Below, in pieces: positions 6,368 to 45,255 of a DNA stretch of 45,255 nucleotides. The DNA lies in the IMG/VR virus record IMGVR_UViG_3300033183_000691, positions 1 through 45,255 of that record; one strand, 5' to 3'. This stretch comes from a virus. Each line of letters begins with the position of its first letter. Position 1 is the stretch's first letter. Below the pieces are notes generated by a model, which saw only the letters and a program-made list of their open reading frames with translations, did no database searches and had not been told where the DNA came from. A program made the position numbers and the translations under genes.

Positions 6368-6370
6368 GGC

Positions 6371-8499: not shown

Positions 8500-9606
8500 T
8501 CAGCGAAGTTTCGTTGAGCTTTGTCCTTGGCGGCCCTGGCGGAGATCGTCTGCGCTCAGGACGAACCTTGTCACGTATTCACCCTTCACGACATTGATGG
8601 GGTCCCCCTCAAGCCCGAAGGCCTTCTTCAATGCCCTGGACAGAGCCTGCTTATTTTTCTGCAGGAGCTGCGTGTCTTTTGAATTGGCGCAACGCAACGC
8701 ATGCCGGCCATTTTGGGCGCCGAGTTCCAAAAAGAATTTCCACGCCTCTTTAAAGGCAGTTTCCTGGGTCTTGGTATTCCGCAGACCAAAGGCATCAGGC
8801 TCAAAGGCACGGGTCACACCGCCAACTGCAACATTGATCCATGCTGCAGCCGTGAAGCGGATCGTCATATCTTCCCAAGTTGTCCCAGGCGGCAGATCCC
8901 AAGCGCGCTGAGGGCCTTTTGCTTGCGCGGCCATATCACCCAACTGCCCAAGCAGGTCTTGCATGATGGTATCGCCCTGTGGGGTGAGGGCAAATTTGCC
9001 TGGTCCACGCGCGAAGAGATTTGCGTCCAAGGGCATGATGGTTACACCATGGCGCCGAAGCGGTTCGGCGACAGTGCTCGGGAGTGAGGCCACCGTTGGA
9101 CAGAGCAACACGACCGGGGTGGGCGTTTCTAGAATTTCATCGAGATCTTGGTGCTCGGCTTTGGGGGTGGCGCCGGGAATGCACAAAAAAACGGGCACCC
9201 CCAATCCAGCTGCCCGCTCGCGCGTGCCCAATCGCTGGATAAAGGACGGCGCGAGATTGCGGATCGGTGGCTGCAGTTCCATGGCCTTGACCAAGGCTTC
9301 CGCAAAGCTGCGTCGATCCAGGGCATGGATGCGTAACGCGTCTCGTGTCACTTCGAGCGATTGGCACGCTTTGGGGCTATCGCCACAAATGGCGCTGGCG
9401 GTTCCGTCGCCATGAATGATGACTTGCCGTGGACAGCCCTCACCCCCGGGGTGCGGGCATGGGAGCGAGGCTGCCATTTTACCCGTTGCGGGCAAAAATG
9501 GGGCCACCGCTTTCCATTCCTCGTCAAGGCGCTGCTGCCAGCCCCAATGCGATGATCCGCCGTCGGTCAGCTCATCAAGCGCTTTCCAGAACTTCGAAAT
9601 CATCAT
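8500..9606 (-). CDS. Hypothetical phage protein, 368 aa
   Basis: Not recognised. The N-terminal part has a possible zinc-binding cluster (CPHPGGEGCPRQV, then CGDSPKACQ) around residues 50-85. The rest is alpha/beta-like, and the C-terminus is basic (KNKQALSRALKKAFGL). The double ATG at 9606 is chosen because it follows a GAGG site; the longer frame overlaps the upstream gene extensively. It overlaps the upstream 400-aa gene by 32 bases, so the two are probably one unit in the early operon. A DNA-metabolism role is suggested only by position. Confidence 0.7.
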   Translation of the reverse strand: MMISKFWKALDELTDGGSSHWGWQQRLDEEWKAVAPFLPATGKMAASLPCPHPGGEGCPRQVIIHGDGTASAICGDSPKACQSLEVTRDALRIHALDRRSFAEALVKAMELQPPIRNLAPSFIQRLGTRERAAGLGVPVFLCIPGATPKAEHQDLDEILETPTPVVLLCPTVASLPSTVAEPLRRHGVTIMPLDANLFARGPGKFALTPQGDTIMQDLLGQLGDMAAQAKGPQRAWDLPPGTTWEDMTIRFTAAAWINVAVGGVTRAFEPDAFGLRNTKTQETAFKEAWKFFLELGAQNGRHALRCANSKDTQLLQKNKQALSRALKKAFGLEGDPINVVKGEYVTRFVLSADDLRQGRQGQSSTKLR

Positions 9607-19267: not shown

Positions 19268-19864
19268 ATGTCATCTGCCACCCAGCCCATCGGCGTGATC
19301 GCGCGCCTGCTCGACCTCTCGGAGCGGCGGGTCCAACAACTGAGCCGCGAGGGTGTAATCCCGAAGGCTGAGCGTGGCCATTATGATCTGATCGGCTCCG
19401 TGCGGGGCTATGTGCGCTATCTGCGCGATCAGGCGCTGAAGGCGCAGGCGGGAGCACCGGACTATGCCGCTGAACGCGCGCGCTTCATTCGGGCACGCGC
19501 TGACCTCGCCGAAATGGAGGCCGAGGAAAAGCGCCGTTCGCTGATCGCGGCGGACCAGATCGAGGCGGCCTGGATTGCAGTGCTGGCGCTCTTGCGCACT
19601 CGACTGCTGGCCCTGCCGGACCGGTTGGCACCTCAGGCCTTTGAACAATCCACCGTCGGAGACACTCGGACCCTGATCCGCGCCGCCATCCGCGAGGTGC
19701 TCGATGATCTCGCGCAGCCAGACATTGAACTTGCAGCCGATATTGACCTTGCAGGGGTCACCGATCCTGAAGCGGACGGTGGCGAAAGCACTGGCAGTTC
19801 TGAAGCCTCCGCCCGACCTGACGATCAGCGATTGGGCCGATCAGAACCGCCGGCTGAGCTCTGA
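19268..19864 (+). CDS. Terminase small subunit (Nu1-like)
   Basis: 198 aa from ATG 19268; a TTG 21 bases upstream is an alternative. The N-terminal HTH (GVIARLLDLSERRVQQLSRE) matches lambda Nu1-type DNA-binding domains, followed by a helical assembly region (ARADLAEMEAEEKRR). It should recognise the packaging site and recruit the large subunit. The 3' end overlaps the large-subunit gene by about 160 bases if the ATG at 19704 is used. Confidence 0.85.
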   Translation: MSSATQPIGVIARLLDLSERRVQQLSREGVIPKAERGHYDLIGSVRGYVRYLRDQALKAQAGAPDYAAERARFIRARADLAEMEAEEKRRSLIAADQIEAAWIAVLALLRTRLLALPDRLAPQAFEQSTVGDTRTLIRAAIREVLDDLAQPDIELAADIDLAGVTDPEADGGESTGSSEASARPDDQRLGRSEPPAEL

Positions 19865-21674
19865 AGCCAGCGCCGAGCCGGGCCAATGGCGCACGAGCCG
19901 CGCCGAATACCAGCGCGGGATCATGGATGCGATCTCGGATCCGGCGGCCGAAACCGTCGTGATCATGTCGAGCAGTCAAATCGGCAAGTCGGAGTCGATC
20001 CTTAATATGGTCGGCTATCACATCGACCACGATCCGGCGCCTATCATGGTGGTAATGCCCACTGAGCGCGATGCCGAAACCTGGTCGAAGGACCGCTTCT
20101 CGCCGATGGCACGGGACACGCCGTGTTTGCAGGATAAGATTGCCAACCCAAAGTCACGGGACGGGAACAACAAGATCCTGCACAAGCGGTTCCCGGGTGG
20201 GCATCTCACCATCGTCGGCGCCAATGCGCCCTCTGGCCTTGCGAGCCGACCGATCCGGCTGCTCCTCTGCGACGAAGTCGACCGCTATCCGTTCAGCGCA
20301 GGCGCTGAAGGCGACCCGGTGAACCTCGCGAAGAAGCGGACGGTGACGTTCTGGAACCGCAAGATTGTGCTGGTCTCTACGCCGACGAACAAGGGCGCAA
20401 GCCGGATCGAGGCGGCATTCGAGGAAAGCGACCAGCGTCGGTATTGGGTGCCGTGCCCGGTGTGTGGTCATGAACAAATCCTGACCTGGGGACAGGTGAA
20501 ATGGCAAAAAGATGAGAACGGCGGCCATCGCCCCGAAACCGCGCGCTACCACTGCGCCGACTGCGACGTCGCGTGGAAGGACGAGACCCGCTGGGCCGCG
20601 ATCTCCAAAGGACGCTGGATCGCGGATGCGCCGTTCAACGGGACGGCAGGGTTCCATCTGAACGAGATCTATTCGCCCTGGGTGCGGCTTGAGGCCATGG
20701 CCAAGGCGTTTCTATCGGCGCGCGCCGGTGGGGATGAGACGATGAAGACCTTCATCAACACCTCGTTGGGCGAGACGTGGATGGAAAGTGGCGAGGCCCC
20801 GGATTGGCAGCGCCTGCAGGGGCTGAAGGAAGACTGGCGCGCAGGCACGGTGCCGGCGGGCGGTTTGTTTCTTACCGCTGGGGTCGACGTCCAGAAGGAC
20901 CGGGTCGAGGTCGATGTCTGGGCATGGGGCAAGGGCCTGCAAAGCTGGCTCATTGACCACATCGTCATCGACGGCGGTCCTGGCGACCCGGCGTGCTGGC
21001 AAAAACTGACCGATCTGCTGGGCGGGACATGGGTTCACGCGAGCAATACGCCAATGACCATCGCGCGACTTGCGATCGACACGGGCTATGAAACGGCGGC
21101 CGTCTACGCCTGGGCGCGGCAGGTCGGGTTTGGACAGGTCGCGCCAATCAAAGGCCTTGAGGGATTCAACAGGGCAAGCCCCGTCACAGGCCCAACCTTT
21201 GTGGACGCCACAATAGGTGGGAAACGCCTGCGCCGCGGGGCACGGCTTTGGACCATCGCCACCTCGACATTTAAGGCCGAGACCTATCGCTTCCTGCGGC
21301 TTGATCCGTTGGAAACCAGCCCGGCGGATGTGGAGACGTTCCCTCCCGGCTTTCTTCATCTGCCGGGCTGGGTCGACGCTGAATGGCTGAAGCAGCTGAC
21401 GGCCGAGCAGCTGGTCACGGTCAAGAACAAGCGCGGCTTCGCGAGACTTGAATGGCAAAAGCTGAGGGAACGCAACGAGGCACTCGACTGTCGGGTCTAT
21501 GCCCGCGCGGCCGCTTGGATCCTCGGTGCAGACCGCTGGTCGGACGCGAGGTGGGAAGAACTCGCGGCGCAGTTTGCGGTCGCTGATGGCAGGGGCACGG
21601 CCTCTGCCACAGGCCCGCAATCTGTACGAAAGCCACAGGTGCGCCGCCTTGCGCGGTCAACATACATGGGATGA
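19704..21674 (+). CDS. Terminase large subunit (GpA family)
   Basis: 656 aa. ATPase Walker A variant SSSQIGKS (89-96), adenine-binding PTERDAETWSKDRF, and Walker B LLLCDEVDRYP precede a zinc-finger-like set (CPVCG ... CADCD) and a nuclease domain (GVDVQKDRVEVDVWAWG). This is the lambda gpA family that cuts and translocates DNA into proheads. The ATG at 19704 has a GAGG site; GTG 19779 would shorten it to 631 aa and reduce the overlap with the small-subunit gene. Confidence 0.95.
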   Translation: MISRSQTLNLQPILTLQGSPILKRTVAKALAVLKPPPDLTISDWADQNRRLSSEASAEPGQWRTSRAEYQRGIMDAISDPAAETVVIMSSSQIGKSESILNMVGYHIDHDPAPIMVVMPTERDAETWSKDRFSPMARDTPCLQDKIANPKSRDGNNKILHKRFPGGHLTIVGANAPSGLASRPIRLLLCDEVDRYPFSAGAEGDPVNLAKKRTVTFWNRKIVLVSTPTNKGASRIEAAFEESDQRRYWVPCPVCGHEQILTWGQVKWQKDENGGHRPETARYHCADCDVAWKDETRWAAISKGRWIADAPFNGTAGFHLNEIYSPWVRLEAMAKAFLSARAGGDETMKTFINTSLGETWMESGEAPDWQRLQGLKEDWRAGTVPAGGLFLTAGVDVQKDRVEVDVWAWGKGLQSWLIDHIVIDGGPGDPACWQKLTDLLGGTWVHASNTPMTIARLAIDTGYETAAVYAWARQVGFGQVAPIKGLEGFNRASPVTGPTFVDATIGGKRLRRGARLWTIATSTFKAETYRFLRLDPLETSPADVETFPPGFLHLPGWVDAEWLKQLTAEQLVTVKNKRGFARLEWQKLRERNEALDCRVYARAAAWILGADRWSDARWEELAAQFAVADGRGTASATGPQSVRKPQVRRLARSTYMG

Positions 21675-21903: not shown

Positions 21904-23412
21904 ATGGGGATGTTTGACCTGTTCCGCCGTCGGGCCACCGGCGGCCCTGAAGCCATGCGCGCGCGTCTCGAAGGGGCGATGGCTAAGCGCCGCTTGCGGG
22001 GCTGGAACCCGCCCTTGGAAAACATCAACGCGCTGGTCGCTTCTGGCGGCCCGCGATTGCTAGCCCGCTCGCGCGAGCTGGTTGTCACCAACGGCTATGC
22101 GGCGAACGCCTGCGAGGCCTTCGCCGCCAATTTGGTGGGCGATGGGATCAAGCCGTCTTCGCTCATTGGCGATGCCGACTTGCGCGACCAGGTCCAGAAG
22201 CTCTGGCTCGCTTGGACCGATGAGGCGGATGCCGATGGGCTGACGGATTTCTACGGCCTGCAGGCAATGGTCGCGCGCGAGATGTTTGTGGCGGGCGAGT
22301 GCTTTGTGCGCCTGCGGCCGCGTCGCGCGGAGGACGGGCTGCTGGTGCCACTGCAATTGCAGCTTCTGCAATCCGAGATGCTGCCCTTCGAGAAAACCGA
22401 GACGAATCCGAACGGCAACCGCATCCGCTGCGGGATCGAGTTCGACCTAATCGGGCGGCGTGTGGCCTATCACTTCCGCCGCCGCCATCCGGGCGATAGT
22501 ACGGACCAGCGGGTGGCTGTGCCGGATACGGTGCGGGTGCCTGCCGAGGAGGTGTTGCACATTTACCGGCCCATCGATGCAGGGCAAATCCGGGGCCTGC
22601 CGCATGTGGCGCCAGCCATGGTGCGGCTCTTCCTGCTCGACCAATACGATGACGCTGAGCTCGATCGCAAAAAGACCGCTGCGATGTTCGCAGGCTTCAT
22701 CACCAAAACGGCCCCCGAAGACCCGATGATGGGCGAAGGCGAGGCCGATCTCGACGGGGCTGCGATCGCCAGCTTGGAGCCCGGCACCATGCAGGTGCTG
22801 TTGCCGGGTGAGGATGTGAAGTTCTCGAGCCCCGCTGATGTCGGCGGCGGCTATGAGGCTTTCCAGTATCGCACGCTCTTGGCGGTCTCAGCCTCGCTGG
22901 GGCTGCCCTATCATCTCGTCACCGGCGATGTTCGGCAGGCGAACTATTCGAGCCTGCGGGCTGAACTGGTCGAGTTCCGGCGACGGATCGGCCAGTTGCA
23001 ACACGGAGTCATCGCCCATCAACTGTGTCGTCCGATCTGGCGGCGCTGGCTTGAAACAGCTGTGCTCTCGGGCGCCTTGGATGTAGATCCTGTCATCGCG
23101 CGGCCCGTGCAATGGATTCCGCCGCGGTGGGACTGGGTCGATCCGCTCAAAGACATTCAGGCGCAGGTGCTGGCGATGGAAGCAGGCCTGACCTCACGGC
23201 GCAAGGTGGTCGAGGCCACGGGCTACGACATCGAAGAGGTTGACCGCGAGAATGCCTCGGACGCGAAACGGGCAGCCGATCTGGGCCTGACCTATCGCGC
23301 CAGCCCCGGCGAAACGCAGGGGGCAAGGGCAACGCCCATCCAAGAGCCCAACCCAAATTCGAGTGACGGACCGTCCGACGGTAGCGCGGACCCCGACCTA
23401 CAACAGGAGTGA
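21904..23412 (+). CDS. Phage portal protein (lambda gpB family)
   Basis: 502 aa. Characteristic segments: SRELVVTNGYAANACEAF, the DFYGLQAMVAREMFVAGECF stretch, VLHIYRPIDAGQIRGLPHVAP and NYSSLRAELVEFRR. This is the lambda-type portal that forms the dodecameric DNA gate at the head vertex. The C-terminal 45 residues are polar and probably disordered. The ATG follows the gpW gene by six bases. Confidence 0.95.
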   Translation: MGMFDLFRRRATGGPEAMRARLEGAMAKRRLRGWNPPLENINALVASGGPRLLARSRELVVTNGYAANACEAFAANLVGDGIKPSSLIGDADLRDQVQKLWLAWTDEADADGLTDFYGLQAMVAREMFVAGECFVRLRPRRAEDGLLVPLQLQLLQSEMLPFEKTETNPNGNRIRCGIEFDLIGRRVAYHFRRRHPGDSTDQRVAVPDTVRVPAEEVLHIYRPIDAGQIRGLPHVAPAMVRLFLLDQYDDAELDRKKTAAMFAGFITKTAPEDPMMGEGEADLDGAAIASLEPGTMQVLLPGEDVKFSSPADVGGGYEAFQYRTLLAVSASLGLPYHLVTGDVRQANYSSLRAELVEFRRRIGQLQHGVIAHQLCRPIWRRWLETAVLSGALDVDPVIARPVQWIPPRWDWVDPLKDIQAQVLAMEAGLTSRRKVVEATGYDIEEVDRENASDAKRAADLGLTYRASPGETQGARATPIQEPNPNSSDGPSDGSADPDLQQE

Positions 23413-24801: not shown

Positions 24802-25815
24802 ATGGCAACCATGGACATCTTTGAGGGCGACGCCTTCAGCATCATCGAGCTCACCCGGGCTCTGGAAAACATCCCCTTCAAACCGGCGATCCTATCGGGC
24901 TCCGGCCTGTTCGGCTCGCGCGGCGTGAGAAGCCGCACTGTGATGATCGAAAGCCGCGATGGCACGCTGTCGCTGATCCCGTTCTCGGAACGCGGCTCGG
25001 CCTATGAACAACAGGTGCCCGAGCGGCGCGACATGCGCGCCTTCGTATGCCGCCAGTTCAAGAAGCAGGATGTTCTCTGGGCCTCGGAAATCCAGGGCGT
25101 CCGGGACTTCGGCTCGGAGACAGCAGTCCAGCAGCTACAGTCCGAAGTGGCCGTCAAGATGAGGCGGCTGCGCAACGACGCCGAGGCCACTTTCGAGTTC
25201 CACCTCTTCAACGGCATTCAAGGCGTGGTGAAGGACCCGAAGGATGGGGCGACGGTCATCAACTACTACACCGAATTTGGCATCACCCCGGCGGCCGAGG
25301 TCGACTTCGATCTCGACAACCAGTCGCCCGCCTCGGGCGCCCTGCGCAAGCGTTGCCAGGCCTTGATCGAAAGCGTGGAAGACAGCCTTGGCGGGCTTGC
25401 TGCCGGTCAAGTGCAGCTCCGCGCCGAATGCGGCTCGGCCTTCTTCGCCGATCTCGTGGCCCACAAGGAGGTCCGTGAAACCTATCTCAACACCGCAGCT
25501 GCTGCCGATCTGCGCGGCCGCGTGGGCGAAGAGGTCAGCTTTGGCGGCATCACCTTCCGCCGCTACCGCGGTGGCCTCGGCTTTGGCGTGCCGACCGACA
25601 AGGCGTATTTCTATCCCGAAGGCGTCGAGGGGCTTTTCGAGATCTACTACGCGCCGGCCGACACGTTCGAGACGGTGAACACGCTGGGTCTACCGCTTTA
25701 TGCGCGCATGATCCCTGATCGCGACCGGGACGAATGGGTGCGCCTCGAGATCGAAAGCAACCCGCTGCCGATCTGCACCCGCCCGCAGGTGCTTCGCTCG
25801 GCCAAGCGGACCTGA
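24802..25815 (+). CDS. Major capsid protein (gpE family)
   Basis: 337 aa, HK97-fold lambda gpE type. Family blocks include FSIIELTRALENIPFKP, TVMIESRDGTLSLI, DVLWASEIQGVRDFG and the C-terminal DEWVRLEIESNPLPICTRPQ. It forms the icosahedral shell. The stop overlaps the next start as TGATG. Confidence 0.95.
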   Translation: MATMDIFEGDAFSIIELTRALENIPFKPAILSGSGLFGSRGVRSRTVMIESRDGTLSLIPFSERGSAYEQQVPERRDMRAFVCRQFKKQDVLWASEIQGVRDFGSETAVQQLQSEVAVKMRRLRNDAEATFEFHLFNGIQGVVKDPKDGATVINYYTEFGITPAAEVDFDLDNQSPASGALRKRCQALIESVEDSLGGLAAGQVQLRAECGSAFFADLVAHKEVRETYLNTAAAADLRGRVGEEVSFGGITFRRYRGGLGFGVPTDKAYFYPEGVEGLFEIYYAPADTFETVNTLGLPLYARMIPDRDRDEWVRLEIESNPLPICTRPQVLRSAKRT

Positions 25816-29945: not shown

Positions 29946-29993
29946 CCTCGTTTCCATTGGGAACGAGGTGTGCCCCACCAAGGAAATGTTCCG

Positions 29994-32435
29994 ATGGCAG
30001 AGAAACGTGTCAGCGTCCGGCTCTCCGCGACCGGCGGTCGACAAGTGCGCGCCGAGTTGGAAGGCGTCGGAGAGGCCGGGTCTCGGGGCTTCGGGCGTCT
30101 CAGCCGTGAAATGGAGCTCGCGAACGCCCGCATGGCCGCCTTCGCGCGCCGAGCGCGGATCGCGGCGACCGCTGCCGCAACTGCTTTGGCCGGTGCCGTT
30201 GTCGCGATGACCCGCTCAACCGTTGCCGCCGCCAACGAGATCGGCCAACTCAGCCAGGTGGCTAATGCAAACCCGGAGGTCTTCCAGCGCTGGTCAGCGG
30301 CCTCGGCCACCGTCGGCATCGAACAAGAAAAGCTCGCCGACATCCTGAAGGACGTGAACGACCGCGTGGGCGACTTCCTGCAAACCGGCGGCGGTCCTAT
30401 GGCGGATTTCTTCGAGAACATCGCGCCAAGAGTGGGGGTGACGGCGGACCAGTTCGCCAGGCTTTCGGGGCCGGAAGCCCTGCAACTCTATATCGACAGT
30501 CTCGAGCGGGCGGGCGTCAGCCAACAGGAGATGACCTTCTATCTCGAGGCGATGGCCTCGGATGCGACGCGGCTGATCCCGCTCCTGCAAAACGGCGGTG
30601 CAGAGATGACCAGGCTTGGCGCGCAGGCGCAGGCATTAGGCGCTGTTTTAGATGCGGACGCGATTGCCGCGATGCGCCGGTCCGAACTGGCGCTGGTCAG
30701 TATCGGCCAGGTCTTCGCCGGGGTGCGCAATCGGATCGCCGTGGCGCTGGCACCCACGCTAGAGGCCGCGGCCAATGCCTTTGTCGCGCTGGCCTCTTCC
30801 ACCAGCCCGATCAGCCGAGCCTTCGACACGGTGCTCGCCAATCTCGACCGGCTCGCGATCTACGCAGGCACCTTTGCCACCTTCCTCGCGGGTCGCTGGG
30901 TGGCCGCGACGGCGGCTGCCGCCCTGTCGGTGCGGGGTTTGGCTACAACGCTCGTGGTCCTGAAAGGCGCGTTGATCCGCACCGGAATCGGTGCGCTGAT
31001 CGTGGGCGCAGGCGAACTGGTCTACTGGTTCAGCCGGTTGGCGTCTGGCGCAGGCGGCTTCGGTGAAGCCATGCGGCTCTTGAAAGATGTCGCTGTCGAG
31101 GTCTGGGAACGGATCAAAATGGGGGCCAACGCGGCCGGGTCGCGTGCCACAGCCATGTTTTATGATCTCAAAGCCGATGCGGCGACCGGCATGGCTGGAG
31201 CCATCGAGAGTGTGGTCGCCTTTGGCAACACCACCGCCAACACCTTCGAGGGCGCGCTTTTGGCCGTGCGCGAAATCTGGTCGCGCCTACCGGATGTGAT
31301 CGGGGATCTGGTCTTCTCGGCGGCCAACCGCATGCTGGATGGCATCGAGGCCATGCTGAACGGCGCGATCCGCCGGATCGACGCCTTTACCGGGCGCATT
31401 CGCGACGCGTTGGCGGCGGTCGGCATCGAAACCACCTTTGGTCAGATCGGCGAAATCAGCCTCGGCGATATCCCCAATCCCTTCGCCGGGGCCTCCGCCG
31501 ATGCGGGAACGGCTGCTGCAGAGGCGTTTCGCCGAGCCTTTGAGGACAATCCGCTCACAGCTCCCGATCTTGGCCTTGATGGCATTGCGGCGGATGCACT
31601 GGAAACAGCCAATATTTACCGGCGTGCCGCCACAGACCTTGCGAATGGCGCGACGGCTCCACTTACCTCCTGGGGCGCGCTTCGTGACGCCGTTGCGGGC
31701 ACCGCCGAAGAAGGCGCGGCTGCGCTGGATGAGGCGACTGTCTCAGCAGATCGGCTGTCGGATGCCATGGCGCGCGCGGGAGGGGCTGCGGGCAGCGCAG
31801 GAGAACGGATCGCCACCGGTTGGCGTGCAGTCTCTGAATCTCTTCAGGCTTATGCCACCGACGCCCTGAACTGGGGCAAAGGCCTCGGCGAAACCCTAAC
31901 GGGCGCTTTCAGTGGCGCGGAAAGCGCGTTTCGGAGCTTTGTTGAGACCGGCAAGTTCGACTTCAAAAGCCTCGTGCGCTCGATCCTGGCGGACCTGGCG
32001 GTTCTGTCGTTCAAGCGCGCGGTGCTGGGGCCCATCGCCTCAGCGCTCTCCGGCATCTTTGGCGGCGGGTCCGTTGCGGCGGCTGTCTCGCATGCGGGCG
32101 GTATTGTCGGACTGTCCGGACATAGCCGCTCGCTGCCTGCGATGGCTTTCGCAGCGGCGCCCCGCATGCATTCCGGCGGTTTGGCGGGACTCCGCCCCGA
32201 CGAAGTTCCAACAATCCTGCAGCGCGGTGAGCGGGTGCTGAACCGACGCGAGGCGGCGGACTATGGCCGGGGCGGCAGTTCTGGCTCGGGCGTAACCGTG
32301 AACATCGACGCGCGCGGGGCGCAGATGGGCGTGGCTGAGCAGATCGACGCCCGCCTTCGGGCGGCGATCCCGGAGATCGCCCGCATCGCCAAAGAAAGCG
32401 TGGCCGATGGGCGGCGCCGGGGTCAGGTGATCTAA
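29994..32435 (+). CDS. Tail tape measure protein
   Basis: 813 aa from ATG 29994 (MAEKRVSVRL). Long Ala-rich helical protein with an N-terminal tape-measure start (GGRQVRAELEGVGEAGSRGFGRLS), hydrophobic segments near residues 50-75 and 290-350, and a C-terminal part with FKSLVRSILADLAVLSFKRAVLGP and HSGGLAGLRPDEVPTILQRGERV, typical of siphophage tape measures. Length sets tail length, here rather short (about 120 nm if 1.5 angstrom per residue). A GTG at 29970 could start it earlier. Confidence 0.95.
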   Translation: MAEKRVSVRLSATGGRQVRAELEGVGEAGSRGFGRLSREMELANARMAAFARRARIAATAAATALAGAVVAMTRSTVAAANEIGQLSQVANANPEVFQRWSAASATVGIEQEKLADILKDVNDRVGDFLQTGGGPMADFFENIAPRVGVTADQFARLSGPEALQLYIDSLERAGVSQQEMTFYLEAMASDATRLIPLLQNGGAEMTRLGAQAQALGAVLDADAIAAMRRSELALVSIGQVFAGVRNRIAVALAPTLEAAANAFVALASSTSPISRAFDTVLANLDRLAIYAGTFATFLAGRWVAATAAAALSVRGLATTLVVLKGALIRTGIGALIVGAGELVYWFSRLASGAGGFGEAMRLLKDVAVEVWERIKMGANAAGSRATAMFYDLKADAATGMAGAIESVVAFGNTTANTFEGALLAVREIWSRLPDVIGDLVFSAANRMLDGIEAMLNGAIRRIDAFTGRIRDALAAVGIETTFGQIGEISLGDIPNPFAGASADAGTAAAEAFRRAFEDNPLTAPDLGLDGIAADALETANIYRRAATDLANGATAPLTSWGALRDAVAGTAEEGAAALDEATVSADRLSDAMARAGGAAGSAGERIATGWRAVSESLQAYATDALNWGKGLGETLTGAFSGAESAFRSFVETGKFDFKSLVRSILADLAVLSFKRAVLGPIASALSGIFGGGSVAAAVSHAGGIVGLSGHSRSLPAMAFAAAPRMHSGGLAGLRPDEVPTILQRGERVLNRREAADYGRGGSSGSGVTVNIDARGAQMGVAEQIDARLRAAIPEIARIAKESVADGRRRGQVI

Positions 32436-34012: not shown

Positions 34013-36559
34013 ATGCCCTTCATCGTGACAGCCGTCACCGCGATCGCGGGGGCGATCAGCGGCGTATTGGCTGCAGGCGGCATTGGCGCGGCCCTTCTGC
34101 GGATCGGCGGCACGCTTCTGCTGTCCTATGCGGCGCAGGCATTGATGCCAAAACCGCAGACCACGATGCAGCCGCGGACGGTGACGATCCGCGAGCCCGT
34201 CGTGCCGCGCGACCTCGTCTATGGCCGTACGCGCAAGGGCGGGGTCATCGTCTTCCTGCACTCCTCGGGGTCGGATAACAAATACCTCGACCTGGTGATC
34301 GTGCTGGCCACGCATCGGGTCAAATCGATCGGAGCCATCTATTTTGAGGGCGAAGTGGCTGTGAATGCCGCTGGGGTCGCGCAGGGCCGATGGGCCGGAA
34401 AGGTCGTCGTCGAGAAGAAACTCGGCGCCGCCAACCAGACCGCCTTCGCGGGCCTGAAAGCTGCGCTTCCCGACAAATGGACCGAGAACCATCGGCTACG
34501 GGGCTGTGCCGCAATCCGGCTGCGGCTAACCTATGACCAGGATGCCTTCCCGGGCGGGATCCCGAACATCACGGTCGATCTTGAGGGCAAGGACGACATC
34601 TGGGATCCGCGGACCCAAACCGCAGGCTATTCGGAAAACCCCGCCCTCTGCCTGGCCGATTATATGGCCAATTCGACCTGGGGCATCGGCGCGCGCATTG
34701 GAGAGCCCGACGGGATCGACGAGATGTCCCTCGTTGAGGCCGCGAACATCTGTGACGAGGCTGTTCCGCTTGCAGGCGGTGGATCCGAGCCGCGTTACGC
34801 CTGCAACGGGGTGATCACCCTCTCTGAGGTCCCGAAGACGATCATCGAGGGGATGCTGTCGAGCTTCGCAGGCCGCTGCGCCTTCTCGAGCGGGTCCTGG
34901 CGCATTCATGCTGGGGCCTGGCGTGCGCCCGATGTGGCGCTGACCCCGGACCATGTGCGCGAGGGCGGGCTGACGCTCGCCACGCGCGTGACGATGTCAT
35001 CGAACTTCAACGGCGTACGTGGGCAGTTCGTCAGCCCCGAGAACGACTGGCAGCCAGATGACTTTCCAGCCTATGCCTCGGATGTTTACCTCGCTGAGGA
35101 CGGTGGTGAGCGGAAATGGCGCGACATCTCGCTGCCCTTCACGATCTCCGCGTCAATGGCGCAGCGGCTCGCGAAAATCGAGCTCGAGCGCGCGCGTCGG
35201 CAGATGACGGTACGGTTGTCGGGGAAACTGTCTGCCTGGGCCGCCACCGTCGGCGATGTGGTGACACTCTCCTATGCCCGTTGGGGCTTTGCTGCCAAAC
35301 CCTTCGAGGTGCACGGGGTCAGCCTTGACCTAACAGCCTCGGGAGATGGCGCACTCCTGCTGCCAGAACTCGTTCTGCGCGAGACATCGCCCTTGATCTA
35401 TGACTGGTCGGCCTCTGAGCAGCAGATCTACGCAGCTGCCCCACGCACGGCTCTGCCCAACGCCTATGACATCCCGGCACCCGGCGCGCCGCAGGTCACC
35501 GAGGACCTCTACATCACGCGGGATGGGGGTGGGCTGAAGGTGCTCGCGAAAATCAGTTGGGAGGCGGCACCCTCGGGATTTGTTGCGGCCTATCAGCTGC
35601 AAGGCAAACTGACGGGCGCGGCCGAGTGGATCGACTATGGCCGCACCGATGGCACCGCGCTTGAAATCCGCGACATCGCGCCGGGGGATTGGGCCTTCCG
35701 GGTCAAAGCCATCTCGGTTCTGGGCGTTTCCTCGATCTGGCAGGAGACAGCGGTTGAAATCCTCGGCCTGACCGCGCCTCCGGCGCAGCTTGAGAATGTG
35801 ACGCTGCAAACGGCAGGTGGCCTTGCGATCCTCAAATGGACACGCTCGGCCGATCCCGACGTGCGGGTCGGTGGCAACATCGTGATCCGCCATTCCAAGG
35901 AAGCGACGGCCACCTGGGCCGACAGCTATTCTATGGACCGGGTCTCGGGCGGCGAAGCCATCGCCGTCGTGCCTTTGAAACCCGGGACCTACCTGGTACG
36001 CGCCGAGGACAGCGGCGGCCGCGCCGGCCCTGAAACCCGCGTCTCGACCAAGGGCGCGCAGGTGCTGGCCTTCTCGACCTTGGACTTCCTGCAGGCCGAT
36101 CCCGGCTTCTTCGGAGCGAAATCAGGGCTACAGGTCACGGGTTCGAACCTGACCCTCGCCACGGCAACCGAAAATGGAGTGACACAGGTCAACACGATGG
36201 AGGGGCAATACGCCTTTGCCGCCGGGCTCGATCTCGGAGCTGTGAAACGCGTGCGGCTCCGCTCGGAAATCGGCGTTGCCGCCCTGGCGCTCAATGACCG
36301 GATCGACACGCGGACCGCACTCATGGACACATGGGCCGACTTCGACGGCTCGGCCGGCGCAGAAATCGATGTGCTCTTCGAGATCCGCGAAACCGATGAC
36401 GATCCGGCCGCATCGCCGAACTGGGGTCCCTGGGGTCGCCTCGACAACCACGAAATCGAAGCCCGCGCGGTAGAGGCGCGGGCGCATCTAACGACGAAGG
36501 ATGCGTCCTACACGCCCATCGTCAGCCAATTGCGGCTTTATGCCGACGAGGTGGCCTAA
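34013..36559 (+). CDS. Tail tip / host-specificity protein (gpJ-like)
   Basis: 848 aa. N-terminal membrane-like Ala/Gly segment (AVTAIAGAISGVLAAGGIGAALL) followed by REPVVPRDLVYGRTRKGGVIVFLHSSG, typical of TipJ. The middle contains GIGARIGEPDG and phage-tail hub domains; fibronectin III-like repeats are seen at about 490-680 (APGAPQVTEDL, LTAPPAQLENVTL). The C-terminus is a beta domain ending in PIVSQLRLYADEVA. It forms the central tip and binds receptor or fibres. Ends overlapping the fibre gene. Confidence 0.93.
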   Translation: MPFIVTAVTAIAGAISGVLAAGGIGAALLRIGGTLLLSYAAQALMPKPQTTMQPRTVTIREPVVPRDLVYGRTRKGGVIVFLHSSGSDNKYLDLVIVLATHRVKSIGAIYFEGEVAVNAAGVAQGRWAGKVVVEKKLGAANQTAFAGLKAALPDKWTENHRLRGCAAIRLRLTYDQDAFPGGIPNITVDLEGKDDIWDPRTQTAGYSENPALCLADYMANSTWGIGARIGEPDGIDEMSLVEAANICDEAVPLAGGGSEPRYACNGVITLSEVPKTIIEGMLSSFAGRCAFSSGSWRIHAGAWRAPDVALTPDHVREGGLTLATRVTMSSNFNGVRGQFVSPENDWQPDDFPAYASDVYLAEDGGERKWRDISLPFTISASMAQRLAKIELERARRQMTVRLSGKLSAWAATVGDVVTLSYARWGFAAKPFEVHGVSLDLTASGDGALLLPELVLRETSPLIYDWSASEQQIYAAAPRTALPNAYDIPAPGAPQVTEDLYITRDGGGLKVLAKISWEAAPSGFVAAYQLQGKLTGAAEWIDYGRTDGTALEIRDIAPGDWAFRVKAISVLGVSSIWQETAVEILGLTAPPAQLENVTLQTAGGLAILKWTRSADPDVRVGGNIVIRHSKEATATWADSYSMDRVSGGEAIAVVPLKPGTYLVRAEDSGGRAGPETRVSTKGAQVLAFSTLDFLQADPGFFGAKSGLQVTGSNLTLATATENGVTQVNTMEGQYAFAAGLDLGAVKRVRLRSEIGVAALALNDRIDTRTALMDTWADFDGSAGAEIDVLFEIRETDDDPAASPNWGPWGRLDNHEIEARAVEARAHLTTKDASYTPIVSQLRLYADEVA

Positions 36560-37215
36560 TGGCGCAGACATCCAGCTTCGTGATCGCGAACGACGCAGGC
36601 GCGGCCGTTCGAGCGCGCATCAATGAGGTGATCGCCGCATTGCAATCGACGAGTGCCGGGTCCTCGGCACCAACAGCCACGGTTGCCGGTATGCTTTGGG
36701 TCGATACCTCGGTATCGCCGCCGGTGCTGCGCCGACGAAACGCCACCAACACAGGCTGGGACGCACTGCTGGATGCGGCAGGCAATCTGGCGGGACTTGC
36801 CAACACGGCCGTGGCGCGCACAAACCTTGGCCTCGGAACAATGGCCACGAAATCCGCAGCCGACTACGACGCGGCGATCGCGGCAAAAGCGGCACTGTCC
36901 GGAGCAACGTTCACTGGCGTCGTGACCGCCCCGAACTTTGTTTCCTCATCCGATGCCCGATTAAAGTCCGATGTCGAGACCATCGCCAATGCGCTGGCTC
37001 TTGTCTCCGCCCTGCGCGGGGTGCGCTTCAGCATGGGTGGCAGCCGCCAGATCGGCGTCATCGCCCAAGAAGTGGAGCCGGTCCTGCCCGAAGTCGTGCG
37101 GGTGGGCGAGGCAGGCCAACTCTCGGTCGCTTACGGCAATATCACTGGCCTTCTGATCGAGGCCGTCAAGGAACTGGCCGCCCGGGTGGCGGCGCTTGAG
37201 GAGGCGCGCCCATGA
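36559..37215 (+). CDS. Short tail fibre with S74 intramolecular chaperone
   Basis: 218 aa. The N-terminus looks like a fibre attachment region (ASSFVIAND-type start and STSAGSSAPTATVAGMLWVDTS). The C-terminal 85 residues form an endosialidase-type S74 chaperone: [13 protein letters not shown], then QIGVIAQEVEPVLPEVV and a coiled-coil end. S74 domains trimerise the fibre and cleave themselves off before the conserved Ser. It overlaps both neighbours. Confidence 0.9.
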   Translation: MAQTSSFVIANDAGAAVRARINEVIAALQSTSAGSSAPTATVAGMLWVDTSVSPPVLRRRNATNTGWDALLDAAGNLAGLANTAVARTNLGLGTMATKSAADYDAAIAAKAALSGATFTGVVTAPNFVSSSDARLKSDVETIANALALVSALRGVRFSMGGSRQIGVIAQEVEPVLPEVVRVGEAGQLSVAYGNITGLLIEAVKELAARVAALEEARP

Positions 37216-39273: not shown

Positions 39274-39476
39274 GCGAAGTGATCCAGCAAACAGGCCCGA
39301 TTATCATCACCGCGCCAATCAAGGTGCGCGTCGTCACTGGACCCTTCCGCATACGCCTCGGCGGCCAGCCAGGACCGCAAGGGGCGACAGGCCCCCAAGG
39401 CGACAAGGGCGATCAAGGTGATCCGGGCATCACGATCCTGCCCACCGACGCCCCCATCAATGGAGGATTTTTCTGA
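39270..39476 (+). CDS. Small collagen-like fibre protein, 68 aa
   Basis: An N-terminal beta hairpin (PIIITAPIKVRVVTGPFRIRL) is followed by about seven Gly-X-Y triplets (GQPGPQGATGPQGDKGDQGD) and ends GGFF. Such short collagen stems usually join fibre subunits as trimers. The ending TNGGFF-type motif is shared with fibre proteins downstream (GGTF). Confidence 0.8.
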   Translation: MSEVIQQTGPIIITAPIKVRVVTGPFRIRLGGQPGPQGATGPQGDKGDQGDPGITILPTDAPINGGFF

Positions 39477-40459
39477 TGGCCAATAACATCCAGCTCAAAC
39501 GCCGCGTCTCGGGCGTGGCAGGTGCTCCTGCAGCGCTTAAGTCCGGCGAACTGGCGCATAACGAAGTCGACAACACGGTCTATGTCGGCAAGGGCGACGA
39601 CGGCAGCGGCACTGCAACCTCCATTGTCCCCGTAGCAGGGAGTGGCAGTTTTCTGGCGCTGGTGGGCACGCAGACAGTTGGTGGGGCCAAAACCTTCTCT
39701 CTCGTGCCAAAATCTGGACAAGATGCCAGCAGCGGGACCGATCTTGTTCGCAAGTCGCAGGTCGACAGTCTGCTATCAGCGAAAGCGCCCTTGGCGTCAC
39801 CCACCTTCACGGGATCGCCCACGGCGCCGACGGCGGTCGCGGGCACGGACTCGACACAGATTGCAACGACGGCCTTCGTCAATCAGGCCATTGCCGGCTT
39901 TGGCGCCGGCGACATGGCAAAATCCACCTATGACACCGACAATGATGGCAAGGTGGATGCCGCGGAAGTTGCGGATGCCGCTCCCTGGGCCGGGATCACG
40001 GGCAAACCCACAAGCTTCACGCCCTCAACCCACAGCCATTCGATTGCGCAAGTTACGGGGCTCCAGACGGCGCTGGATGCAAAGGCGCCTCTTGCATCGC
40101 CTGCGCTGACAGGATCGCCGACCGCCCCCACTGCAACGGCCGGCACGAACACGACGCAGATCGCGACCACAGCCTTTGTTGCCTCCGCCATTGGTGCGCT
40201 TATCGATGCCGCTCCCGGCGCCATGGACACGCTGAACGAGTTGGCCGCAGCGCTTGGCGATGATCCGAACTTTGCAACGACCGTCACCAACGCGCTTGCA
40301 GGCAAGCTCTCTGCCGCATCGAACCTGTCCGACCTCCCCAATAAAGCAACGTCGCGGTCGAACCTCGGACTGGGGTCCATGGCCACGCAAGCCTCCAGCA
40401 ATGTCGCGATCACCGGTGGGTCGATCAACGGGATCACCCTTGACGGTGGGACCTTCTGA
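39476..40459 (+). CDS. Tail fibre protein with repeat modules
   Basis: 327 aa. N-terminal adhesion-like start ([31 protein letters not shown]) is shared with the next gene. Two internal copies of the fibre repeat [19 protein letters not shown] followed by TQIATTAFV lie at about residues 103-140 and 203-240, with a [11 protein letters not shown] module between them. Ends in the strand-rich [11 protein letters not shown]. Probably a long trimeric side fibre. Confidence 0.88.
39785..40195 (+). repeat. Internal direct repeat of the tail-fibre gene
   Basis: Two copies of about 110 bases, near 39785-39895 and 40085-40195, encode the PLASP...TTAFV fibre module. The copies differ at several synonymous and some non-synonymous positions, so they are diverged tandem modules rather than a recent duplication. 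Confidence 0.7.
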
Positions 40460-40461
40460 TC

Positions 40462-41417
<956 letters not shown>

Positions 41418-41421
<4 letters not shown>

Positions 41422-42326
41422 TTGAGACGGGACTTCATGTCATCCACAATACGGGATCGCGGCTCCATTATGCCGTTGATGTCCAGGACACATATGCAGG
41501 GATTGCTGTCTTTGAGCCCTGTGAAGAGGGGTCTGTCATGGGCCTTGGGGACGACGCAGTTCTATGGGCAGATATCTTGGCCATGCTTGAAGAGCCGTTC
41601 GACATGGCGAACTCTGCGGGATTTGTCGATATGCGCGGCAATGGCCTCTTTGTCCCTGACATTCCAGGAGTAACGCATGGCGCCATATACCGTGGACGGT
41701 CTTACGTTTTTCTTGACGGAATGATCGGCCACGATGAAATCACCGATTATGCTTTGATCGATATCATGACGAATGAGGCAGGCTTTCCACTGCCTTGGCG
41801 CAATCGCTTTGCGCAATCGGCACGCGAGAAGGTAGATTATTCCTTTCGACACCGGGCGCGAACGCAGTGCTCCAATGCGCTTGTTATTTTTATGCCTATC
41901 GCGGGGGCTCTCACAACCGCCCGTGTCGAGCTTCTTTGTGATCTAGACCCCATTCTTTTAAACGGCACGACGATTGCAGGCAGGATTGATGACGCGACGA
42001 TTCCCAATGACGGGCAGTGGTTCAAACAGTTTTATTTCCACGCAGATACAACGCTAGAGACTTTGACGGTTGCCGCAGGTGCGCGTGTTGACGTGCCAAT
42101 AGCGCTGCGTTGGAACAAGGACGACACGCCATGCGCCCATGCGTTGAAGCTCAAACTCGAAAGTGATGCGGGATATCTGCCCAAGCGCCGGTTGATCACC
42201 GATGAAAACGGATTGGGCAGTTTTGCGATCGAGGCGCAAGGATTGAACTCAGGGGATCATATCGCAGTCAAGATCAACACAGAGCATTACACGGCCATAG
42301 GAAAAATCATTTTGGAGGTTGTGTGA
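41418..42326 (+). CDS. Unknown protein, 302 aa, first of the fibre-modification cassette
   Basis: Not recognised. It begins with GTG 41418, overlapping the fibre stop and preceded by AAAGGA. The N-terminal half is mixed, with aromatic and acidic residues ([43 protein letters not shown]); the C-terminal half looks like a beta sandwich ([36 protein letters not shown]). No signal peptide. Composition is lower in GC than the fibre genes. It may be a fibre-associated structural protein, adhesin or scaffold for the enzymes downstream; no catalytic motif is visible. Confidence 0.65.
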
Positions 42327-43066
42327 TGGACCTTCAAACAACGACGGAAATCCAGCTGATTTATCCTGCTTTTGTCATGCACAAGCATTGGGAGATGCCA
42401 GAGGGCTTTAACGATCGCCTGCATGCGCTGGCCGCCGAGGACGCTGAGGCAAATCGCATTCAAGACGCAGGCAACGGGAGAAATGTTGGGGATCAGACCA
42501 ATCACCTCGGCCATCTGCGCCATAATTTTCTGATGGATCGACGCGACCCCGTGATTGCAGTGCTGGCGCAAATGGTGGCAGCTGCCGTACGTGAATATTT
42601 GCAGATCGCTTATGGCTATGAACACACAGGCGAGATTGCCATGATGTCGGATACGTTCTGGCAACGTCGCTCAAAGCGCGAACACATTGGGATTAACGCG
42701 CATACCCATATCCAGACCGATATTGTCTGCACCTATTATCCGCGCGTGGTGTTGGATGCCGATTGTCCTCAGACCTCGCTTCATCGCGGGGCTGTGCGCT
42801 TTTACGATCCTGCAAATGTTGGCAAGCGGCTTTGGCCTTGCAACAATCCAGATGCCTATGTGGGCGGCTGGTACGCGGTTGAGCCCGAAACGGGCTCGAT
42901 GCTCGTCTTTGAAGGGCATGTGCCCCATGACAGCACGTATTTTGAGGGCGAGGAGCGGATGTGCATTCCGGTTCTCTGTGCGCTCGAGCTTCCCAATTCC
43001 CACTGCAAGGCAGGTCTCGCCGAGATTTTAGCCCATCAAGCGCAAGGAGGCAGCCATGGCCTATAA
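42326..43066 (+). CDS. Putative Fe(II)/2-oxoglutarate-dependent oxygenase
   Basis: 246 aa from ATG 42326 with GGAGG seven bases upstream. The pattern matches 2OG-FeII_Oxy_5-like proteins: NAHTHIQTDIVCTYYP (metal-ligand candidates His126/His128), AVRFYDPANVG, and GSMLVFEGHVPHDSTYFEGEERMCIP (distal His198 or His201, 2OG-binding Arg211). Such enzymes hydroxylate or otherwise oxidise C-H bonds, often on protein side chains. It overlaps the Asn-Cys repeat gene by 11 bases, suggesting that product as a substrate. The exact ligand set is less clear than in the second oxygenase. Confidence 0.72.
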   Translation: MDLQTTTEIQLIYPAFVMHKHWEMPEGFNDRLHALAAEDAEANRIQDAGNGRNVGDQTNHLGHLRHNFLMDRRDPVIAVLAQMVAAAVREYLQIAYGYEHTGEIAMMSDTFWQRRSKREHIGINAHTHIQTDIVCTYYPRVVLDADCPQTSLHRGAVRFYDPANVGKRLWPCNNPDAYVGGWYAVEPETGSMLVFEGHVPHDSTYFEGEERMCIPVLCALELPNSHCKAGLAEILAHQAQGGSHGL

Positions 43067-43391
43067 GGTCGGAACCACTATTGTGATCGACGACAGCGGA
43101 AATGTGGATTGGTCGCGGATTTCTAATAAGCCTGCGATTGGGGCAGGCGATATTACGTCTGTCGGGATCTCCAATGGGACGCCGGCAAGCGGTGTGAAAT
43201 TTGTGCGAAATGACTATCAGATCACCACGTATTCCGTATTCGCAGCAAATCGAACGACAACGGGCAACTGTAATTGCACGGCAAATTGCTATGTCGAAAG
43301 CCTCTCGGGAGGAGGGACATCGGGAGCGGTCACGATCACCGCAAACCGGAAGTACTTTAATTGCAATTGCAACTGTAATTGTCGGTGCTGA
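43056..43391 (+). CDS. Fibre-like protein with C-terminal Asn-Cys repeats (candidate modified substrate)
   Basis: 111 aa; AAGGAGG lies just before the ATG. The N-terminal half looks like a tail-fibre module (TTIVIDDSGNVDWSRISNKP; compare WAGITGKP in the 39476 fibre). The C-terminal half has two Cys clusters: GNCNCTANCY (Cys72, 74, 78) and YFNCNCNCNCRC (Cys103, 105, 107, 109, 111), with Asn before seven of the eight Cys. Asn and Cys codons are mixed (AAT/AAC, TGC/TGT), so this is not a simple DNA slippage repeat. Neighbouring oxygenases and a radical SAM-SPASM enzyme make it a likely maturation substrate; a metal-binding or disulphide-rich tip is the alternative. Confidence 0.8.
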   Translation: MAYKVGTTIVIDDSGNVDWSRISNKPAIGAGDITSVGISNGTPASGVKFVRNDYQITTYSVFAANRTTTGNCNCTANCYVESLSGGGTSGAVTITANRKYFNCNCNCNCRC

Positions 43392-43393
43392 GG

Positions 43394-44026
43394 ATGGAGG
43401 TTCGCAGCACGACGCTTGAGCTCTGGCCAACAAGGATCAACTTCTTTGAAACCCCGCCTGACTGGGCAGTGAACCGGCGTCTGGCAGATGAGGCCATTGC
43501 GCGGGTAGGGGGTGTGGATGAGAAGATACCCGGCAGCGCCGCAAAGCGGCGGGTTCGGGGCATTTTGGACGACAGCACCGAAGGCCAGACGCTCAAAGCG
43601 CATCTCTTTGCCTGCGCGCGCGCCGTCCTCGGGCCTTGGTCCAAGTATCTCGATCCCGACCATTGCGAAAACCGTGCCCTCGTCATCGAGCCCGGTGGTT
43701 TCATCTCAACCCACAAGGACAGTCGCGAGGGGGACCTGACCTGCGTGCACTTCTTGACTGGCGGTGGATCAGGTCACCCGGTAAACAGCGTGGGCACGCC
43801 GCGCTTCGTGATCGAGGACCCATCGCGCTACTTCGATGAGGGGCGGCTGCCTTATGAGAGCCGCCATGGCTACTCGGTCAACCCGCGGCCGGGGCTCTCG
43901 GTCTTCTTCCCCTCTCATATTCCCCATAACCAGCACCCCTATGAGGGGAGCGCACCCCATGTGCAGGTGGTCGCGAACTTCCGCGTCGACCTGCCCGTGG
44001 CGATCGAAGAAAGGCTGTTCGACTGA
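43394..44026 (+). CDS. Fe(II)/2-oxoglutarate-dependent oxygenase (HxD type)
   Basis: 210 aa from ATG 43394; a TTG at 43379 is possible. GGFISTHKDS carries the HxD iron ligands (His107, Asp109); SVFFPSHIPHNQHPY carries the distal His (probably His178) and NFRVDLP the 2OG-binding Arg197. The fold is the double-stranded beta-helix of P4H/AspH-type protein hydroxylases. It starts two bases after the Asn-Cys repeat gene and overlaps the radical SAM gene by one base, so all three are coupled. It likely hydroxylates residues (Asn is a reasonable guess) in the fibre-like protein. Confidence 0.82.
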   Translation: MEVRSTTLELWPTRINFFETPPDWAVNRRLADEAIARVGGVDEKIPGSAAKRRVRGILDDSTEGQTLKAHLFACARAVLGPWSKYLDPDHCENRALVIEPGGFISTHKDSREGDLTCVHFLTGGGSGHPVNSVGTPRFVIEDPSRYFDEGRLPYESRHGYSVNPRPGLSVFFPSHIPHNQHPYEGSAPHVQVVANFRVDLPVAIEERLFD

Positions 44027-45255
44027 TGTGGTTTGATCTGACGCTGGAGGCGCGTGACGGCAGCCGCCATCACGTGCGCTACAACCCGCACACCTCCGAA
44101 TGCGAAGGGCTGCGACTGCCGGTCGAGTCGGGGATTTTTGCGCCGGTTGCCCGCGTGGCCAAAGACAAGCCCCTCGGAAAATCCCGTGCTCCCCGCATCC
44201 TGAAAATCCAACTCGGGCTCTCGTGCAACTATGCCTGCAGCTATTGCAACCAGGCCTTCCAGATTACGGATGCCACGGTCTCGAAACTGGCCGATGTCGA
44301 GCACTTCCTGACCCAGCTCGACGGCTGGATCACCGACGCGCCGGAGACGATCGAGCTCTGGGGTGGGGAGCCGTTTCTTTACTGGGCCAAAATCAAGCGG
44401 ATGATCCCCGCGCTGGCGGAGCGCTTCCCGGCGGCGCGCTTCTCGATCATCACCAACGGCTCGCTCCTCGACCGAGAAAAGCTCGACTTCATCGCGGCCC
44501 ACGATATCGCCATCACGATCTCGCATGACGGGCCCGGTCAGCATATGCGCGGGCCGGATCCGTTCGACGATCCTGTCAAGAGTCACTGGATCCAAACCCT
44601 GTTGGCTGAGCGTCCCGAAAAGACCGGTTTTAATGCGGTTCTGACGCGCCAGCATCACGACCTTCGGGCGCTCAAGGCATGGTTCGCCGAAAAAGTCGGG
44701 CCGGACATCTTCGTTGGGCTCGAGGGTGTCGTGAATGTCTATGACGCGGCGACCGCCATCGGAACGGGACGGTTTGAGCCCTCGGAGCTGAACAGCTTAA
44801 CGCGGTCGATCTTCGAGGCGCTGGCAGAGGACCCCAACGCCTTTGGCCTCGGCGAGCGCATCAACGAATTCTATTCTTCGATTCAGCGTCGGCGGCCCAT
44901 CGAAGCGCTTGGCCAAAAATGCGGGATGGACAGCCCCGACGCCATTGCCGTCGACCTGCGCGGGAACGTGATGACCTGTCAGAACACCGGGGCAAAGGGA
45001 GCGCACAAGATCGGTCATGTCGCCGAGTTTGACGCCATCGCACTCGATACCGCGACGCATTTTGCCTTCCGGAACGAATGCATGTCATGCCCTGTCGTTC
45101 AGCTCTGCAAAGGGTCCTGCATGTTCCTCGAGGGTGAGTTCTTCAAGCAGTCTTGTGCCAATGAGTTCGCCTTCAACATGGGAATCATGATGGCGGCGGT
45201 GTGGCATTTGACGGGGATGGTGGTGGTCAACGTAAATGCAGCCGTTTTGGCTTAG
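44026..45255 (+). CDS. Radical SAM / SPASM peptide-modifying enzyme
   Basis: 409 aa. The radical SAM cluster motif CNYACSYC gives Cys67, Cys71, Cys74; the SAM-binding GGEP is at 113-116 and SIITNGSLL follows. The C-terminal SPASM domain has all seven cysteines in order: Cys299, Cys318, then CMSCPVVQLCKGSC (352, 355, 361, 365: C-x2-C-x5-C-x3-C) and Cys377. Such enzymes hold two auxiliary 4Fe-4S clusters and modify peptides (thioether links, Cys oxidation to formylglycine, C-C bonds). No N-terminal RRE leader-binding domain is obvious. The C-terminal 25 residues are hydrophobic. Last gene of the fibre cassette; the stop is the final base triplet of the window. Confidence 0.92.
   Translation: MWFDLTLEARDGSRHHVRYNPHTSECEGLRLPVESGIFAPVARVAKDKPLGKSRAPRILKIQLGLSCNYACSYCNQAFQITDATVSKLADVEHFLTQLDGWITDAPETIELWGGEPFLYWAKIKRMIPALAERFPAARFSIITNGSLLDREKLDFIAAHDIAITISHDGPGQHMRGPDPFDDPVKSHWIQTLLAERPEKTGFNAVLTRQHHDLRALKAWFAEKVGPDIFVGLEGVVNVYDAATAIGTGRFEPSELNSLTRSIFEALAEDPNAFGLGERINEFYSSIQRRRPIEALGQKCGMDSPDAIAVDLRGNVMTCQNTGAKGAHKIGHVAEFDAIALDTATHFAFRNECMSCPVVQLCKGSCMFLEGEFFKQSCANEFAFNMGIMMAAVWHLTGMVVVNVNAAVLA

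Follow-up and report, generated by a model that had tools for sequence, protein, structure and literature searches.

A radical SAM enzyme of tailed phages and its putative substrate, the alternating cysteine tip of tail proteins

Results

The last gene of a prophage recovered as a 45,255-bp IMG/VR virus contig (the window, that is, the whole stretch of DNA analysed) encodes a radical SAM/SPASM enzyme, hereafter rSAM. We propose that rSAM is probably a phage-specific maturase of C-terminal (X-Cys)n runs in tail-fibre and tail-tip proteins, in which it would cross-link Cys to the neighbouring residue X. As judged from sequence, the (X-Cys)n repeat is very probably the substrate of the enzyme, represented here by the NCNCNCNCRC end of a small tail protein encoded two genes upstream. 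The window is of the tailed-phage type, with genes for terminase, portal, major head protein, tape measure, a tail tip J homologue and tail fibres:

19704-21674, terminase
21904-23412, portal
24802-25815, major head protein
29970-32435, tape measure
34013..36559, plus strand, central tail tip J-like protein (phrog_5616, phrog_31)
36559..37215, plus strand, tail protein with S74 chaperone
39476..40459, plus strand, tail fibre protein
40462..41421, plus strand, collagen-like tail protein with S74 chaperone
41418..42326, plus strand, protein X, conserved partner of rSAM (undescribed N-terminal domain and Ig-like C-terminal domain)
42323..43066, plus strand, second 2OG-Fe(II) oxygenase-like protein (TIGR02466, 5.5e-7; family O profile, 1.6e-69)
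43056..43391, plus strand, 111-aa small tail protein, proposed substrate, two genes upstream of rSAM
43266..43289, plus strand, internal NCNC-TA-NC segment of the 43056 product, a possible second modification site that is not in all homologues
43359..43388, plus strand, C-terminal repeat Asn-Cys-Asn-Cys-Asn-Cys-Asn-Cys-Arg-Cys, abutting the stop codon and written in mixed synonymous codons
43394..44026, plus strand, 2OG-Fe(II) oxygenase-like protein with an HKD motif, whose stop overlaps the rSAM start (phrog_81, 3.4e-6; family O profile, 5.3e-59)
44026..45255, plus strand, radical SAM/SPASM enzyme (PHROG_1802), proposed tail-tip maturase, last prophage gene

From 40462 to 45255 the ORFs overlap or nearly touch throughout, in the order collagen-S74 fibre, protein X, 2OG oxygenase-like protein, small tail protein, 2OG oxygenase-like protein and rSAM. 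Together with the S74 tail proteins and the tail tip J homologue, this bears out the placement of rSAM in a tail-fibre operon by a preliminary description of the same DNA. Its view of the DNA as a prophage also held. In the chromosomes of Thalassovita, Thalassobacter and Nereida (Rhodobacteraceae), homologous rSAM genes are followed directly 3' by host genes that differ between hosts, which places the rSAM gene at the prophage end. Thalassobacter stenotrophicus CECT 5294 holds four rSAM loci (L206, L207, L208 and L219, one of them cut by a contig end), which makes this strain a convenient experimental host. Elsewhere in the window (17263-18495) lies a gene for a DNA methyltransferase with a fused ParB-like domain (phrog_498, 1.6e-145).

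The enzyme and its cysteines

The rSAM ORF starts with ATG, is intact and encodes 409 aa; its TAG stop forms the final three bases of the contig. Cysteines are found at residues 26, 67, 71, 74, 299, 318, 352, 355, 361, 365 and 377, giving a CX3CX2C motif and the canonical SPASM spacing C-x13-G-x4-C ... C-x2-C-x5-C-x3-C ... C, and the motif positions listed in the preliminary description were all exact. The product scores above the cut-offs of Pfam Radical_SAM (38.9 versus 29.5 bits) and of the NCBIfam SPASM domain TIGR04085 (31.0 versus 27 bits), and the PHROG_1802 profile matches it at E 1.5e-52 over residues 47-386, most of the protein. We analysed conservation in 72 phage members of the family less than 85% identical to each other. 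CX3CX2C was kept in 72/72 of these clusters and each of the seven SPASM Cys in 70-72; neither an eighth conserved SPASM Cys nor any conserved Cys beyond the ten cluster ligands was found among the 72. The complete or almost complete invariance of the ten ligand cysteines shows that the motif is not due to chance. Seven rather than eight SPASM Cys put phage rSAM on the CteB plan and not on the 8-Cys anSME plan; thus, the complete SPASM set that had been reported stands, while its supposed closeness to the anSME plan does not. In the ranthisynthase CteB a substrate Cys can bind to one auxiliary cluster, which is open, whereas the auxiliary clusters of anSME, SuiB and PqqE are fully ligated (PMC8326336). 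From the Cys count alone, an open auxiliary cluster is predicted in the phage rSAM family, with a non-Cys ligand being possible.

The AlphaFold2 model of rSAM (pLDDT 95.9, pTM 0.92) begins with a beta-hairpin (residues 3-8, 14-20 and 25-27) and has no helix ahead of residue 75. An RRE, looked for in this model, was absent, in line with what had been noted from the sequence. The hydrophobic C-terminal tail, in contrast, is not unusual as had been thought: its VVVNV segment is an ordinary, conserved and confidently modelled beta strand (399-404). Foldseek ranked CteB first (5why, E 6e-14), followed by anSME and ChlB, but fold similarity to CteB and anSME is about equal (TM 0.57 and 0.58, respectively), anSME being lower by E-value only.

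In a maximum-likelihood tree of 71 sequences the phage enzymes formed a clade of 34 rows (support 99/99; 89/59 when two divergent members are included) apart from anSME, the QhpD/PapB-like enzymes and CteB, in a topology with weak support at deep branches and several long reference branches. The separate phage clade that the preliminary description had proposed to look for is, thus, present. None of the NCBIfam equivalog cut-offs was reached by the product. It scored 38.3 bits against a cut-off of 349 for TIGR03942 (anSME), 33.4 against 425 for TIGR03974 (SCIFF maturase, of which it also lacks the RRE), and 69.6 against 340 for NF047865 (PapB), which was nonetheless its best NCBIfam match and was matched by 56/58 phage family members at 1e-10. 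In host genomes, no close relative of rSAM was found apart from the phage copies; the next cellular match scored about 63 bits, against more than 500 for the phage copies. In the host family only 3/199 genomes have a copy, the query genome being one of them, and plasmids yielded none. As the host genomes hold no comparable enzyme, we reject the reading of rSAM as a host sulfatase maturase picked up as cargo, the outcome that the preliminary description had named as fatal to its proposal; the separate clade and the low TIGR03942 score speak against cargo as well. The sequence comparisons support the view that rSAM is a SPASM enzyme dedicated to phages and distinct from the known families.

Pairing of rSAM with cysteine-tipped tail proteins

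Among 80 IMG/VR relatives of rSAM, most loci have an (X-Cys)n tail protein encoded on the same strand, the run usually being the extreme C-terminus. We approached this pairing from both sides, with counts in which many records are metagenomic fragments and clusters are still related to each other. Starting from a scan for the enzyme alone, in which the repeat was unused (35 clusters at 85% identity), a same-strand C.C.C.C protein was found nearby in 30/35 clusters, and in 27/29 where flanks were long enough. In two of the clusters without a match the Cys repeats are looser: EWACDCANCSMK in L061 and NCAACLDCSNCSACGDG, followed by Hint, in L029. A later profile scan, by which at least 568 viral-contig stretches encode rSAM relatives, provided 21 new rSAM clusters as a hold-out set. 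The repeat was present in 18/21 of them; one more locus has NCNCNC and another begins at a contig end. Opposite-strand controls gave 0/35 and 2/72, and 1/21 in the hold-out set, which rejects chance Cys runs near rSAM as an explanation.

In the reverse direction, viral contigs were scanned for DNA encoding NCNCNCNC. Among the matches listed, rSAM was present in 56/57 cases in which an in-frame (NC)4 was C-terminal and was followed by 3.5 kb or more of DNA, and lay downstream of 29/30 dereplicated C-terminal (NC)4 proteins. The matches listed also included 15 out-of-frame ones and internal ones, of which only 1/6 with enough flank had rSAM. Homologues of the 43056 product all end in an (X-Cys) run, except those of L339 and L340, which are contig-end fragments, and of L348 and L349. 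These last two, which have the N-terminus of the 43056 product without its run, serve as a small natural control: the 5.2 and 1.0 kb of DNA that follow them, respectively, contain no rSAM motif. Exceptions to the pairing are L346, in which the 935 bases present show no rSAM motif, and L213, an rSAM locus with no repeat nearby. Two cultured Achromobacter phages, JWF and 2-1, have both rSAM and the repeat protein. In the phage collection, tblastn gave no match to the 43056 protein, to protein X or to a short tail protein of the HTH type.

Judged on these sequence associations, the pairing of rSAM with an (X-Cys)n tail protein is well supported as general and reciprocal. A Cys-rich putative substrate encoded nearby, a criterion for thioether-forming rSAM enzymes, is found at most family loci. 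The link to the 43056 product made in the preliminary description was sound, although its decisive NCNCNCNCRC end went unmentioned in that finding.

Properties of the (X-Cys)n run

Strict clustering divided the run-bearing proteins into 24 sequence families that have only the C-terminal (X-Cys)n run in common. The run itself is thus likelier to be the recognition element than the fibre fold, through which substrate recognition had earlier been suggested to proceed. Synonymous codon variation was seen in 70/85 runs, which excludes a microsatellite artefact as their origin; together with the biased choice of X, it marks the run as a selected protein feature. At the enzyme-first loci X is Asn in 39%, Ala in 17%, Lys in 14%, Asp in 11%, Arg in 6% and Gln in 4% of cases. 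Gly makes up 0.5% of X as compared with 12% of the rest of the same run-bearing proteins, and Ser and Thr about 1% as compared with 9-10%. Most runs contain 4-7 Cys and few aromatic residues, and it is Cys, not X, that is invariant. The share of Lys is due mainly to three giant runs of 25-27 Cys, found in the (Lys-Cys)n tail proteins L292:954-1748, L294:493-1230 and L287:1790-2518.

The run stands directly at the stop codon in 73/85 cases; otherwise a Hint, S74 or another domain comes next. A Hint domain begins at or just past the last repeat in JWF, 2-1, L030, L031, L066, L072, L099 and L189, and a Pfam scan of three run-Hint proteins found Hint-type domains in all of them (JWF above cut-off, two below). 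S74 directly follows the run in L292 and L294. Hint and S74 domains are self-cleaving, so a run that stands at the stop or abuts such a domain would be the mature C-terminus; in L292 and L294 that end would be a highly cationic, Cys-rich rod. In L071, L076, L077 and L092 the run is followed by a 170-aa domain (L071:9336-10244, L076:2856-3758 and others) that starts with SKIICTKL and has no Pfam match. By analogy to Hint and S74, it may be self-cleaving or a chaperone.

Partner genes

A match to the protein X profile is present in 50/72 rSAM clusters, and the 2OG oxygenase family that includes both oxygenases of the window in 31/72. Protein X gave no convincing match in Pfam or among PDB sequences; its model (pLDDT 87, fair) has a fold match in its C-terminal part only, to Ig-like domains. 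As a guess, its role might be that of a tail adaptor or of a chaperone that presents the substrate. Another radical SAM/SPASM enzyme, shorter than the first, adjoins protein X and the main rSAM in about 8/72 clusters; it has SPASM Cys (L190:5826-6842, L197:4695-5711, L300:6193-7191) and possibly makes another modification on the same tip. L292 has a homologue of flavin-dependent tryptophan halogenases (5730-7598; Pfam 4.9e-77) between its (X-Cys)n tail protein and rSAM. Membrane proteins of desaturase type and proteins resembling Asp/Asn beta-hydroxylases were seen around rSAM (L040:6654-7385, L040:9274-10760, L061:6582-7304), and similar gene types have been reported in pelagimyophages (PMC7029224). 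In L030 a 132-aa ORF (9121-9519) consists of the N-terminal hairpin and the SPASM part of the rSAM family without the radical SAM barrel, and could be a substrate-binding partner or a decayed copy.

Discussion

The following course of events would fit our results. After translation, the (X-Cys)n end would be bound by rSAM and SAM would be cleaved by the CX3CX2C cluster, with a substrate Cys bound at the open iron site of auxiliary cluster I. A hydrogen would be lost from X (in most cases Asn, Ala, Asp or Lys) to the 5'-deoxyadenosyl radical, probably from C-beta, and the bound Cys would attack X to give a Cys-X thioether, after which rSAM would move along the run and repeat the step. In other phages a Hint or S74 domain would cut itself off, leaving the cross-linked run as the extreme fibre tip. 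The probable role of the two 2OG oxygenases is hydroxylation, either of this tip or of the collagen-like fibres. The outcome would be a rigid tip, stable to redox and protease, and the role of cross-linking may be tip hardening or host contact. C-beta thioethers that join Cys to Asn or Asp are present in NxxcA and freyrasin (PMC8326336). We give thioether formation in the phage proteins even chances. The rarity at X of Gly, and of side chains that are branched or hydroxylated, would agree with attack at an unbranched C-beta, and hints that hydrogen is abstracted there rather than at C-alpha. A difficulty for the thioether model is the occurrence of residues other than Asn or Asp at X and of long (Lys-Cys)n runs.

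Could the run instead be a needle tip that binds metal or Fe-S, in the way that other tail tips bind iron at HxH sites, with rSAM adjusting a few residues or acting on another tail protein? An extended strand would put all Cys of the run on one side, favouring metal binding in a trimer, and 4-7 Cys per run would be compatible with this; pure metal binding, however, gives no reason for almost all such phages to encode a dedicated radical enzyme, nor for the strong selection on X, above all against Gly, and we regard it as unlikely. A little less likely still is epimerisation of alternate residues, which would turn the run into a D/L-alternating narrow beta-helix, a membrane-active tip without thioethers. 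Such a helix would require the strictly alternating residue type seen in (X-Cys)n, and the rSAM epimerase EpeE (YydG) does turn up in both profile and fold searches, but known rSAM epimerases need a critical catalytic Cys (PMC8326336), of which the conserved set of ten ligands leaves none, and seven SPASM Cys with an invariant substrate Cys suit thiol chemistry better. We rate equally low the formation of other cross-links (C-C, C-N or C-O) or joint action with the 2OG oxygenases. The products of SPASM enzymes do extend to cyclophanes and further bond types, and rSAM weakly matches cyclophane maturases in NCBIfam, yet the runs are poor in aromatics and their invariant element is Cys and not X.

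The annotation of the JWF homologue as an anaerobic sulfatase-maturating enzyme, and the closeness of anSME in fold, raise the question of whether some or each Cys is converted to formylglycine, the aldehydes of which would react with the host surface. This is very improbable, given the separate clade, the TIGR03942 score of 38 against 349, the seven instead of eight SPASM Cys, and a Gln (Q319, nearly invariant) in phage rSAM that aligns with the Asp following a SPASM Cys in anSMEcpe. The motif modified in sulfatases, C/S-x-P/A-x-R, is moreover missing from the (X-Cys)n run. Least credible of all is that rSAM and the Cys-tipped protein have nothing to do with each other and hitchhike side by side in a modular tail cassette. 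Such cassettes do gain and lose 2OG oxygenases, desaturase-like proteins and a halogenase, but the reciprocal association spans 24 tail-protein families and divergent phages, far above any other counted neighbour.

The proposed cross-linking of the (X-Cys)n run by rSAM has parallels in several known systems. The CteB/SCIFF ranthisynthases (TIGR03974, PDB 5WGG/5WHY) share the barrel and SPASM domain, and the open auxiliary cluster that is observed in CteB is predicted here; they differ in having an N-terminal RRE and a small precursor peptide, whereas phage rSAM has no RRE and a putative virion tail protein as substrate. The nearest chemical model is provided by the ranthipeptide maturases PapB (freyrasin) and NxxcB (NF047865), which make Cys-Asp or Cys-Asn beta-thioethers (PMC8326336), although the phage repeat is a strict X-C alternation and the phage clade is separate from the PapB-like proteobacterial enzymes. 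anSME (TIGR03942, PDB 4K36) has the same overall domain plan and a similar fold score, but eight SPASM Cys and a clade of its own, and the phage operon is without a sulfatase. PHROG_1802 of Achromobacter phages JWF and 2-1 is the same family as the rSAM of the window, with an NCNC-repeat tail protein two genes upstream; there a Hint domain follows the repeat, and the annotation of rSAM goes no further than radical SAM or sulfatase maturase. Enzymologically, phage rSAM is a new subfamily with a putative new substrate class within a known kind of enzyme.

Radical SAM genes have been called an unusual feature of Campylobacter phages (PMC3322345), and in the host-recognition cluster of pelagimyophages radical SAM cassettes lie near tail fibres, with Asp/Asn beta-hydroxylase a core gene (PMC7029224). 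The likeness to the latter is one of gene type, and no substrate, repeat or mechanism was proposed there. A link between rSAM and Cys-repeat tail tips was not found described in the open-access (CC-licensed PMC) literature, though a description elsewhere is possible. Radical SAM genes in phage tail regions, noted earlier without explanation, now have a concrete, testable candidate substrate. A simple sequence rule suffices to pick out such candidates in hundreds of phages, among them the two cultured Achromobacter phages and culture-collection prophages.

On balance, we lean towards a widespread, undescribed radical SAM cross-linking of (X-Cys)n tail-fibre tips, exposed by Hint or S74 where needed, as a RiPP-type maturation of a virion structural protein. 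If the tips are indeed cross-linked, this would be a RiPP-type radical modification of a virion protein and would account for the presence of such enzymes in tail operons, and a leader-independent, repeat-processing maturase would be of interest to peptide engineering. Chemistry known so far mainly from peptide natural products would then serve to harden or cross-link the tail tips of phages.
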